Assembly: GCA_000200715.1 (NCBI GenBank)
Contig: DP000238.1
Span: forward strand, 556,154-620,153
DNA: 64,000 nt
From: Cenarchaeum symbiosum A
GTDB taxonomy: Archaea; Thermoproteota; Nitrososphaeria; Nitrososphaerales; Nitrosopumilaceae
Direction of reading: 5' to 3'
Positions 17,420 through 21,276 of this stretch are shown here, one piece after another. The notes under the pieces were generated by a model, which saw only the letters and a program-made list of their open reading frames with translations, searched no databases and had not been told where the DNA came from. Position 1 is the stretch's first letter; each line of letters starts with the position of its first letter. The position numbers and the translations under genes were made by a program.

Positions 17420-18226
17420 TCAGGCCCGGGCTTTTGCATGCTCTGGTTTTGAGAGCCTCTGGTATAGCTCGTACGCCTCGTCTGCCTTCATGTTCCCGTG
17501 GACTATTGCCCTCACGGCCCTGATCATGGGGACCGGGTTCTCTGACTGCCAGATGTTCCTCCCCATGTCGACGCCTACCGCCCCCGCATTGACGGCATTG
17601 TATGTAAGGTGCAATGCGTCGCGCTCTGGTATCTTTTTGCCCCCCGCTATGATTACGGGGACAGGGCACGATTCTATAACCTTTTCAAAGTTCTCGCAAT
17701 AGTATGTCTTGATTATGTGGGCCCCCTGTTCGGCGGCTATCCTGCAAGCAAGGGAGAGGTATCTTGCGTCTTTTCCCATGTCCTTTCCGACAGCGGTGAC
17801 AGCTAGAACGGGCATGCCGTATTCCTCTGCCTCGTTTACGAGCCTGCCAAGGCTCACTATTGTCCTGTGCTCGTGCTTTGCGCCCACAAATATCGACATT
17901 GCAAGCGCGCTCGAGTTGAGCCTTAACGCGTCTTTTATCCCAGTGGTTATCCTCTCATTCGATAGGTCCTCGCCTATTATGCTTGAACCGCCGGAGACCC
18001 TCAGCACTATGGGTATGTGCTGGGTTGCGGATACCGAGCTTCGCAATACGCCGCGTGTCACCATGAGGGAATCACAGTGGCGGAGCAGGGGGCGTATGGC
18101 GCGCGCAGGCGCCTCTAGCTTTTCTGTCGGGCCCAGAAAGTAACCGTGGTCGACGGCCAGCATCACGGCCTTGCCGTCGGGCGGGCGTATTATCCCTGAG
18201 ATGCGGTTCTTGAGGCCCCAGTCCAT
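17420..18226 (-). CDS. DeoC/LsrF/DhnA-family class I aldolase-type enzyme
   Basis: 268-residue TIM-barrel enzyme of the archaeal class I aldolase/LsrF group. Family traits seen are LAVDHGYFLGP near the N terminus, a central IIKTYYCENFEKV with the candidate Schiff-base lysine, PVIIAGGKKI, and AGAVGVDMGRNIWQSENP binding phosphate. Members act as fructose-bisphosphate aldolase, as 2-amino-3,7-dideoxy-threo-hept-6-ulosonate synthase (archaeal aromatic amino acid pathway), or as LsrF thiolase; sequence alone does not choose. It stands alone on the minus strand, so context does not help. Confidence 0.8.
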   Translation of the reverse strand: MDWGLKNRISGIIRPPDGKAVMLAVDHGYFLGPTEKLEAPARAIRPLLRHCDSLMVTRGVLRSSVSATQHIPIVLRVSGGSSIIGEDLSNERITTGIKDALRLNSSALAMSIFVGAKHEHRTIVSLGRLVNEAEEYGMPVLAVTAVGKDMGKDARYLSLACRIAAEQGAHIIKTYYCENFEKVIESCPVPVIIAGGKKIPERDALHLTYNAVNAGAVGVDMGRNIWQSENPVPMIRAVRAIVHGNMKADEAYELYQRLSKPEHAKARA

Positions 18227-18277
18227 GCGCGAACGCTAGTTTTACCTATGATAAGCCTTTCCCGGGCCGTGCTGTGG

Positions 18278-18496
18278 GTGTTTGCCCCATCATTACTGAT
18301 GCCAGGCCCTCTTCGATCCATATATTCTTCCTCCTCCACGTCTCTGTGAGAGTTTACCCTCGGCTCCGCAAAACCGGATTTCAGGCACGAATCCTGCCTT
18401 GGAAGTTTTTCCCCCACGCACGAATCTAAACTCTCACCACGTCTCTAGGCATGTCAGGAGCATGCTGAATATCATCATGCCATCAGGCGTCTTGAG
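18278..18496 (-). mobile_element. transposase-tail remnant, copy 1 (interrupted by a MITE)
   Basis: Sequence shared with 20115-20227 in the same orientation: both carry the stretch encoding LKTPDGMMIF plus LLTCL on the minus strand and the following ~70 bases (ATCATTACTGATGCCAGGCC on the plus strand). In this copy a 92-bp element splits the match. The coding part is only a few codons, so this is a dead fragment. Confidence 0.65.
18337..18446. mobile_element. 92-bp MITE with 11-bp inverted ends and a 9-bp target duplication
   Basis: The element spans 18346-18437, starts GTGAGAGTTTA and ends TAAACTCTCAC, a perfect 11-bp terminal inverted repeat. It is flanked on both sides by CACGTCTCT (18337-18345 and 18438-18446). 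Copy 2 of the surrounding remnant at 20115-20227 runs through this point without the insert (TCCTCCGCGCCTACAGGCAC), which is the empty site. It encodes nothing, so it must have been moved by a transposase supplied elsewhere. Confidence 0.85.
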
Positions 18497-18543
18497 ACGC
18501 TCGATCAGTATGTATAATAATCATCTACACCTATACACGTTTT

Positions 18544-19086
18544 ATGGATGCATTTGAATGGGTTGTCTTAATCGCAAGCATGTTTGCCGTGTGTGGCGCG
18601 ATCGCTGCAATTGCCACAGTATGGATATCCGCTCGCAGATATTTAAAGGAAAAAAATACCGAAGAAGTAGATTCAGCTCAAAACCTATACTGCGAATTAA
18701 ATACTGACTCGAAATACCTTGATAAAACAGAATATCCATACAGTTTTTTAAGTCTGAAAACAACCGATTCCACAGGAAATAAAAAAATGGCACGCTTCAT
18801 GTTACAATTTCTGAATCACGACTTTTATGACAGCATGATGTATTCTGGCAAGCTCTATTTCTTGAAACGAGATACTCACCGGTCTATCCAATATGCTTTC
18901 AAGCTAATTAAAACGTACAACAAGTATCTCGAAATGGTGTCACCCGTGCTTATTCAACCAGAGCCAGAACTGGAAGAAATCTGGTTATATTGTAAATTGC
19001 TTGAAGAATACCAGTCACGTATCAAGGTGGCCATTCAGGAAAGTATGAGAAAACTGGAACAAGACTTTAAGATCGTCAAGTGCTAG
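18544..19086 (+). CDS. AT-rich hypothetical membrane-anchored protein
   Basis: 180 residues. One N-terminal membrane segment (about 6-28, WVVLIASMFAVCGAIAAIAT) is followed by a short basic stretch (SARRYLKEKN) and a mostly helical charged domain of ~140 residues; the Cys-containing end is FKIVKC. The layout suggests a signal-anchor with a soluble domain. No family recognised. Base composition is clearly more AT-rich than the flanks and the gene lies between two copies of a transposase-like remnant, both signs of recent transfer. Confidence 0.65.
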   Translation: MDAFEWVVLIASMFAVCGAIAAIATVWISARRYLKEKNTEEVDSAQNLYCELNTDSKYLDKTEYPYSFLSLKTTDSTGNKKMARFMLQFLNHDFYDSMMYSGKLYFLKRDTHRSIQYAFKLIKTYNKYLEMVSPVLIQPEPELEEIWLYCKLLEEYQSRIKVAIQESMRKLEQDFKIVKC

Positions 19087-19245
19087 CCTTTTGTGGCGCC
19101 CGACTCGTCTCGGATGAAATGAACCGTATCCCGACTTTACTCGATCCAAACACTCGCTGATTACCAAATTCCAATTCTGGATGAGTTGTCTTTATACTGG
19201 GTCTCGGGTATAGTCTAGGCAGTAAGGCACTGTGGTAAAACAGAT
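19087..19245. other. short gap after the AT-rich gene
   Basis: No gene, clear hairpin or promoter seen here; it separates the ends of two convergent genes. Confidence 0.4.
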
Positions 19246-20064
19246 TCAGTTTCCTTTCTCCGACCTGATCGGCTCATCTGGCGCAGCCAGCTCCTCCGGC
19301 GTCGCCCTGTATTTCTTGGGTACCAGAAATGGCTCAACGCTGCCATAAAGTGGCTCTTCAACTTTTCCTACTGGCTCATCTGGCGCAGCCAGCTCCTCCG
19401 GCGTCGCCCTGTATTTCTTGGGTACCAGAAATGGCTCAACGCTGCCATAAAGTGGCTCTTCAACTTTTCCTACTGGCTCATCTGGCGCAGCCAGCTCCTC
19501 CGGCGTCGCCCTGTATTTCTCGGGTACCAGAAATGGCTCAACGCTGCCATAAAGTGGCTCTTCAACTTTTCCTACTGGCTCATCTGGCGCAGCCAGCTCC
19601 TCCGGCGTCGCCCTGTATTTCTCGGGTACCAGAAATGGCTCAACGCTGCCATAAAGTGGCTCTTCAACTTTTCCTACCGCCTTATCTGCCGCGGCCAGAT
19701 CCTCCGGCGTCGCCCTGTATTTCTCGGGTACCGGGAATGGCTCAACGGTGCCATGATGCGACTCTTCAACTTTTCCTACCGCCTTATCTGCCGCGGCCAG
19801 ATCCTCCGGCGTCGCCCTGTATTTCTCGGGTACCGGGAATGGCTCAACGGTGCCATGAAACGGCTCTTCGGTTTTTCGCATCTCCGATCCATCCGGCTCG
19901 CCCGGCATGTCAATTACTGCTTTTAGTATAATTTTAACGGGCACCTCGATTCCATCCGGCTTGCCCGGCATGTCATCTAGTTTAAACTCAAGGGGCATCT
20001 CAATTGTCTTGGCATGACTGTAAAGCATCTTCTCCTTTGCCTTCTTTTCTATCTTGTCTGGCAT
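19246..20064 (-). CDS. tandem 34-residue-repeat protein
   Basis: 272 residues. A basic N terminus (MPDKIEKKAKEKM) and a smaller duplicated segment (DMPGKPDG / DMPGEPDG) are followed by six tandem 34-residue repeats of the pattern VEEPLYGSVEPFLVPEKYRA, TPEELAAPDEPVGK. Repeats 1-2 form one subtype (HGTVEPFPVPEKY, DLAAADKAVGK) and 3-6 another, nearly identical one, so the array has grown recently. No signal peptide or membrane segment. The repeat is proline- and glutamate-rich and probably extended. Function unknown; it sits in the island bounded by transposase-like remnants. Confidence 0.7.
   Translation of the reverse strand: MPDKIEKKAKEKMLYSHAKTIEMPLEFKLDDMPGKPDGIEVPVKIILKAVIDMPGEPDGSEMRKTEEPFHGTVEPFPVPEKYRATPEDLAAADKAVGKVEESHHGTVEPFPVPEKYRATPEDLAAADKAVGKVEEPLYGSVEPFLVPEKYRATPEELAAPDEPVGKVEEPLYGSVEPFLVPEKYRATPEELAAPDEPVGKVEEPLYGSVEPFLVPKKYRATPEELAAPDEPVGKVEEPLYGSVEPFLVPKKYRATPEELAAPDEPIRSEKGN
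19258..19868 (-). repeat. six 102-bp tandem repeats inside the repeat protein
   Basis: Units of 102 bp (34 codons) in head-to-tail order; the four nearest the gene's 3' end are almost identical at DNA level (shared block ATGGCTCAACGCTGCCATAA on the plus strand). The unit length is a multiple of three, so gain or loss keeps the frame. Confidence 0.85.
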
Positions 20065-20173
20065 ATGCCGTATTGTGCAAGCTGATATTTAATTGGTATG
20101 TAGGCTCAGACATTGGCGTTTGCCCGATCATTACTGATGCCAGGCCCTCGATCAATATGTTCTTCCTCCGCGC

Positions 20174-20395
20174 CTACAGGCACGTCAGAAGTGCGCCAAA
20201 TATCATCATGCCATCAGGCGTCTTGAGCTGCTCCCTGCACCTCTGCCTCACCGCCTTGATGGCCGCCTCGGCCGAGTTGTTGGCGGACTCTGCATCCTTG
20301 TACCGGAGGAATATGAACAGGCGCGGCTCGGCCCTCTTCGGGGTGCCGGCAAAGGCGGAGCCGGACCGCTCGCAGGCCGCAATCAGGCCGCTCAT
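20174..20395 (-). pseudogene. C-terminal transposase-like remnant, copy 2
   Basis: A 73-residue frame with YKDAESANNSAEAAIKAV, then LKTPDGMMIFGALLTCL. The NNxAExAIKxV pattern followed ~20 residues later by T-x-x-G-x-x-x-F resembles the C-terminal end of IS66-type DDE transposases. The catalytic core is absent. Its ATG overlaps the stop codon of the D12 methylase as ATGA, so it is probably still translated. Downstream sequence repeats at 18278-18496. Alternative: a genuine small protein unrelated to transposases. Confidence 0.45.
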
Positions 20396-21276
20396 CCGGT
20401 AATCAGGGCCTCCACCATGCTGTTTCTCAGGTTTTCAGTGGATCCCAGGTGGTAAAAATGCTCGTGCTTGTGAATGGCAAATCCGCTGAAATACCTGTCT
20501 ATTGTATCGTTTCTGCGGTACTTGTTCTCGTACCATAGGGATAGGGCAAACCTTGTGCCCCTATCTATGAGAAACCCCGCCAGGTCTGCCATGTCTGATT
20601 CCGACCACGTATCGTAATAGTTTGCATGCCTGCCGTAATAGGGCGGGTCCAGATATGCAAAGTCATTATCCCGCATGCCCTCGAGGGCGCCGCGCCAGTC
20701 GGCCGTCTCAAAGCACCACTTGTTATCCCGGATGAGCCGCTCCACCGCATACACCTGGTTGACTATCTTTGTGATGTACGCCTTTGAGAATCTGCCGGGT
20801 TTTTTGCAAAAGGGCGTGTTGTACCCGCCTTTTGAGTTGAACCTGACCAGGCCGTTGAAGCCTGCCCTGTTCAGGAACAGAAAATCCAGCGGATCATGTG
20901 ACGAGTTGAACCTGTCCCTTATTTCATAGTAATATGCGCCCCCTTCTTTAGCCAGCCTTTGGCCCTCTTTTTCCAGGTATCGCCTCACCGCATGATGTGT
21001 GATGGTCCCGCGGGAGATGCCCTGATAGAACCCTGCTATGTGCGGGTTGTGATCCGAGGCAGCTGCGCGCCCGGGCTGGATGTTGAACAGGACCACGCCC
21101 GAGCCCAGGAACGGCTCGAACCATCTCCCTTTCCCGTCCCAGCGTGCATTCTCCCGTATGAACGGGACGAGCTTGCTCTTTATCCCCTGTATCTTGATCG
21201 GGGGTATTATCCTGGGCTGTGCCGCCCGCACCGGGCCGGACTGCGGAATAGTTGATTGCATCATGGGGGCAATCAA
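20392..21276 (-). CDS. D12-class (Dam/DpnM-type) DNA adenine methyltransferase
   Basis: 294 residues. It methylates adenine N6 using S-adenosylmethionine. Motif I appears as RWFEPFLGSGVVLFNIQPGR after the D12-typical KIQGIKSKLVPFIRENA, and the catalytic motif IV is DNDFAYLDPPYYGRHANYYD. The segment LFLNRAGFNGLVRFNSKGGYN is the usual substrate-loop region of this class. No restriction enzyme is adjacent, so it is an orphan methylase or a scar of a lost system. A 73-residue transposase-like remnant is translationally coupled at its 3' end. Confidence 0.88.
   Translation of the reverse strand: MIAPMMQSTIPQSGPVRAAQPRIIPPIKIQGIKSKLVPFIRENARWDGKGRWFEPFLGSGVVLFNIQPGRAAASDHNPHIAGFYQGISRGTITHHAVRRYLEKEGQRLAKEGGAYYYEIRDRFNSSHDPLDFLFLNRAGFNGLVRFNSKGGYNTPFCKKPGRFSKAYITKIVNQVYAVERLIRDNKWCFETADWRGALEGMRDNDFAYLDPPYYGRHANYYDTWSESDMADLAGFLIDRGTRFALSLWYENKYRRNDTIDRYFSGFAIHKHEHFYHLGSTENLRNSMVEALITG

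Follow-up and report, generated by a model that had tools for sequence, protein, structure and literature searches.

The window that we analysed is the whole stretch of 64,000 nucleotides at positions 556154-620153 of the single 2,045,086-base contig of Cenarchaeum symbiosum A, a genome for which the available text of PMC3990693 quotes a size of 2.05 Mbp and a G+C content of 57.7%; the window itself has a G+C content of 54.0%. Between an aldolase-family gene and an ORF of 180 aa, the terminal part of an older IS66-type remnant is interrupted by a 92-bp unit whose inverted ends (11 bp) and flanking direct repeats (9 bp) are all perfect (Table 1), confirming the miniature inverted-repeat element (MITE) that the initial annotation had claimed here. 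At 92 bp the unit is too short to encode a transposase, and the list of ORFs across it holds none of transposase length, a 75-aa ORF overlapping the MITE. Further along the window (19246-20064), a 272-aa ORF consists of a unit of about 42 residues repeated in near-identical form.

Table 1. Features of the MITE locus (window coordinates) and IS66-type elements elsewhere on the chromosome (chromosome coordinates, marked chr)
Feature	Position	Strand	Remarks
MITE, 92 bp	18346..18437	.	unique among the copies found in having both 11-bp ends perfect at this spacing
Left terminal inverted repeat, GTGAGAGTTTA	18346..18356	+	identical to both ends of IS A
Right terminal inverted repeat, TAAACTCTCAC on the + strand	18427..18437	-	matches the ends of IS A
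Target-site duplication, left copy, CACGTCTCT	18337..18345	+	
Target-site duplication, right copy, CACGTCTCT	18438..18446	+	
Conserved core, CAGGCACGAATCCTGCC	18382..18398	+	consensus over the family, CAGGCACGGATTCCGCC, fits the motif next to the left end of three IS66-type elements
End of the IS66-type remnant hosting the MITE	18274..18345	+	decayed end GTGGGTGTTTG at 18274-18284
Same host remnant, continued	18447..18515	-	resembles the tail of an IS66-type transposase gene
Possible far end of the host remnant, GCGAGTGTTTG	19147..19157	-	tentative
Second IS66-type remnant	20115..20400	-	the "empty copy" of the initial annotation
IS A, 1,736 bp, apparently intact	chr 299697-301432		same perfect 11-bp ends as the MITE, the right one at 301422-301432; 9-bp duplication ACACCATCG
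IS B, apparently intact, more divergent	chr 628867-630609		ends GTGTGTGTTTA; 8-bp repeat ATCAAAAT
IS C, decayed	chr 1122900-1123893		
IS D, decayed	chr 106056-107151		
IS E, decayed	chr 107160-107517		8-bp repeat ACAACATT

The MITE ends and their duplication together are far beyond chance. Allowing one mismatch, GTGAGAGTTTA is found in the window at the two MITE ends only (0.46 occurrences expected). A chance palindrome beside a chance repeat could be proposed on the ground that the window holds 10 perfect inverted pairs of such length (arms of 11 bp or more, total length 50-400 bp), some of them being registers of one longer pair. Against this, the 92-bp unit is the only one of the 10 flanked by a direct repeat of at least 8 bp, and none of the 632 inverted pairs in 100 simulated first-order Markov sequences of window length had such a duplication. 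Coincidence is further refuted by the diverged copies elsewhere in the genome and by IS A, which shares the MITE ends and has a 9-bp duplication as well; we regard its probability as practically nil.

We then compared the flanks of the MITE with the rest of the genome. Both flanks fall into another repeat family, which is the tail of IS66-type elements, ending in GTGAGTGTTTACCC; the in-window relative at 20115-20227 matches 14 places, itself included. The MITE is therefore a transposon nested in a transposon, having inserted some 70 bp into an older relative of its partner. According to the initial annotation, the uninterrupted paralogous copy at 20115-20227 proved the insertion. This copy is real, with 81.6% identity to the flanks over 125 columns (insert and one duplication copy left out), but it is weak at the target and does not by itself prove the insertion, because one of its 3-bp gaps falls exactly there, together with mismatches. 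A better empty site is found at chromosome 107 kb (one place covered by the overlapping loci L014 and L016), where 108 gapless columns run through the junction at 78.7% identity and a single copy of CCACGTCTCC stands at the junction itself. A third relative, at 1,135.9 kb (L022), is 88% identical to the flanks over 75 bp and reaches just past the target. In the second remnant of the window, the ORF at 20174-20395 matches DDE_Tnp_IS66 weakly (15.7 bits, under the cut-off of 23.1).

The extent of the host remnant is more tentative. IS66-type-like ends at 18274-18284 and 19147-19157 bracket the MITE and the 180-aa ORF (18544-19086), which may delimit an 884-bp element, perhaps a decayed one carrying a passenger gene; no target-site duplication was seen around this candidate. 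A relative of the 180-aa ORF, 51% identical, lies at chromosome 271525, and weaker ones are present both in its own genome and in a congeneric one.

The initial annotation had further predicted an autonomous element elsewhere and proposed a search for an IS with matching ends. This search recovered IS A, with an intact IS66-type frame, the identical 11-bp ends and a 9-bp target duplication. Its frame of 555 codons, or 550 aa when counted from the first ATG, extends to the right end, the TAA of that end being the stop codon. The protein carries GDETG, CDGLGSY and NNAAERA at residues 338, 386 and 494, motifs that may contain the catalytic DDE triad. It passes the DDE_Tnp_IS66 cut-off of 23.1 with 149.8-152.8 bits; since it scores 157.7 bits against the NCBIfam IS66 equivalog NF033517, under the cut-off of 180, we call IS A IS66-type rather than a certified member. 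Genome-wide, ends of the form GTGAGWGTTTR occur 20 times with zero mismatch, compared to once for the reversed control, and at 79 places with at most one mismatch. Within 2 kb of each other, such ends form 15 convergent pairs (a count that includes combinations sharing an end), compared to 4 divergent pairs and 1.5 expected.

The product of the 557-codon frame of IS B is 37% identical to the IS A transposase. A piece of 225 bp at 1473457-1473681, which starts like IS B and lacks a duplication, seems to derive from an element of the IS B type by internal deletion. A different small element is possibly represented by a 104-bp unit at chromosome 1402556-1402659 (L112:157-260), with the ends GTGAGTGTTTA and GTGATAGTTTA, around which no duplication was seen.

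When genome contigs, a set that may leave out records of the window's own genome, were searched with the IS A transposase, a single relative was found, 31% identical, in a Nitrosopumilaceae MAG. In a genome of the same genus (G001; loci L100 and L107 among others), this transposase has 23 matches, 25-29% identical to it and each within a frame of at least 500 codons (one with an internal TAG). Because these frames are long and 9 of them share an identical length of 593 codons, they suggest a recent expansion of IS66-type elements in G001.

Several IS66-type end variants coexist in the C. symbiosum genome, and the MITE could have been moved by a transposase other than that of the IS A type, either of the IS B type or of a lost IS. 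That IS A is the sole intact element found with the exact MITE ends, and that most MITE copies are old, would be compatible with this view. However, IS B departs from the MITE at 2 of the 11 end positions and has an 8-bp duplication, whereas IS A agrees exactly in its ends and in the 9 bp. We therefore consider another transposase unlikely.

Besides the ends, the MITE and the IS share a short motif. Over 30 copies of the MITE family, the best-conserved block is TCAGGCACGGATTCCGCC. The core motif matches at 14 of 18 positions in IS A, 14 of 18 in IS D and 13 of 18 in IS C, at the same offset in all three (base 14 of the IS, beside the left end), and of 2000 shuffles 0, 1 and 4 reached the score of A, D and C, respectively. 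It is absent from IS B (9 of 18 positions; 1402 shuffles) and weak in IS E (11 of 18; 182 shuffles). Hence, the core motif is plausibly a transposase-binding site. Similarity is limited elsewhere: the MITE right end is 94% similar to that of IS D over 17 bp, and beyond the 11 bp only 4 to 9 of the next 17 positions are alike between the MITE and IS A and D. As the similarity stops after 11 to about 18 bp, leaving only the ends and one short motif in common, we rejected the idea that the MITE arose simply by internal deletion from one of the IS copies found.

Other copies, another point that the initial annotation had proposed to check, were found in diverged form. With the 92 bp as a query, 12 places in the genome were recovered at E<=1, namely the window copy, eight at E<=1e-5 with identities of 71-86%, and three with weak matches. 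A 92-bp pair in which both ends are perfect is present a single time. A sequence-only family model built from 10 aligned copies extended this to 48 matches at E<=10, 31 of them at E<=0.01 (including the 10 sequences that built the model). Among the best 30 of the 48 places, identity to the consensus, which starts with GTGAGAGTTTG, ranges from 57 to 84%, with 82% for the window copy. About 30 MITE copies are thus dispersed in the genome, mostly old and decayed. Two of them form a tail-to-tail pair, 12 bp apart, at 1299329-1299516. Four diverged copies lie in one orientation within 6 kb (L035, L036, L040 and L053; chromosome 750.7-756.6 kb), and the similar flanks of L040 and L053 suggest a local duplication. 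Outside this genome, the model gave one match in 60 related genomes (G008, E=0.009), a marginal value that is the chance expectation over 60 genomes. The MITE pair had no match in viral contigs, nor in either of the genomes G001 and G016.

We also looked for direct repeats at the flanks of the 29 other copies. First, the mean best 9-mer match was 6.10, compared to 5.51 in displaced controls, none of 120 of which reached 6.10, and four copies matched at 8 or more of 9 positions (control mean 0.4). Second, in a narrower flank window (11 bp out, 2 bp in), one of the 29 had a repeat of at least 8 of 9, which 11 of the 120 controls also reached; the mean (5.10 versus 4.57) was still above all 120 controls. 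Third, in this narrower window, the mean of the best 9 other copies was reached by 1 of 120 controls and that of the 20 weaker ones by 5 of 120. Given the single repeat of at least 8 of 9 and the mean above the controls, these other insertions are old, with their duplications mostly lost. Because of their age, we infer recent activity just for the window copy and for IS A, the one intact IS found that shares its ends.

Across copies, the outermost 10 bp are less conserved than the core, the opposite of a young MITE family, a difference that may partly be ascertainment given that copies were found by local similarity. The better conserved interior would also be expected of a conserved RNA or regulatory DNA near promoters, kept for its function, with the paired ends forming a stem. 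According to a crude ORF calling, six of the 10 copies in the model (5 of 9 regions) have divergent genes on their two sides, and the entire 92 nt folds well (z of -3.8 and -4.3). However, the fold becomes ordinary once the ends are removed (z of -0.4 and -1.7), and this explanation accounts neither for the target duplication and the empty site nor for an IS with the same ends; the one marginal match among 60 related genomes also speaks against it. A structured RNA family was not supported, as RNAalifold on the 10 copies gave no well-supported structure and an Rfam scan of 17800-20700 returned no match at E<=1. We thus judge maintenance for such a function very improbable. It is conceivable, if improbable, that the host retained old copies as regulatory DNA, so that a transposase-binding motif became a dispersed operator of this sponge-symbiont archaeon; the better conserved core of the old copies and their frequent position between divergent genes are the basis for this idea.

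Taking together the identical 11-bp ends, the equal 9-bp duplication, the uninterrupted related site, the dispersed copies and the intact transposase frame, the MITE is very probably a non-autonomous transposon moved in trans by the IS66-type DDE transposase of a full-length IS on the same chromosome. Such mobility in trans is predicted from the DNA sequence. The transposase would bind the MITE ends and the AGGCACGGATT motif, cut or copy the 92-bp unit and join it to target DNA cut with a 9-bp stagger, which repair would then turn into the target duplication.

In a survey of thaumarchaeal mobile elements, the available text counts 0 IS in C. symbiosum A (PMC6563490), a count that overlooks two or more IS66-type elements in apparently intact form, along with a family of about 30 small derivatives; transposase enrichment in C. 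symbiosum is mentioned in the accessible parts of PMC7848895 and PMC6790972. In the accessible text of the openly licensed literature, a set excluding the original genome paper, neither this MITE nor the IS was found to be described. What our data add is a MITE, its uninterrupted related target and its full-length partner documented in one archaeal chromosome, which matters for the annotation of the C. symbiosum A genome and does not amount to new biology.

With the IS66 family (Pfam PF03050, NCBIfam NF033517), the elements share the transposase domain, ends beginning with GT and a target duplication of 8-9 bp, 8 bp being the length typical of IS66. They differ in that IS A has one long gene, no TnpA/TnpB having been noticed. 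The ends of the C. symbiosum IS begin with GTGAG, compared to GTAAGCG in a Pseudomonas IS66 as given in the available text of PMC12888890. By its published description, MITEPsy1 of Pseudomonas syringae (PMC3189936, available text) is similar in having about 100 bp, inverted ends, no gene and an assumed mobilisation in trans; we liken it to our MITE by description, and it is listed as IS5-like with a question mark. The MITEs of Staphylothermus marinus, as far as the accessible text of PMC2678158 describes them, are likewise short non-coding repeats with inverted ends and many copies, and they resemble DNA next to a transposase gene in their own genome. They measure about 260 nt and have 14 copies, compared to 92 bp and about 30 mostly decayed copies in C. 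symbiosum, where the partner, unlike theirs, is of the IS66 type. The MITE and its partner thus represent an ordinary kind of genomic parasite, but an unusually complete case of it.
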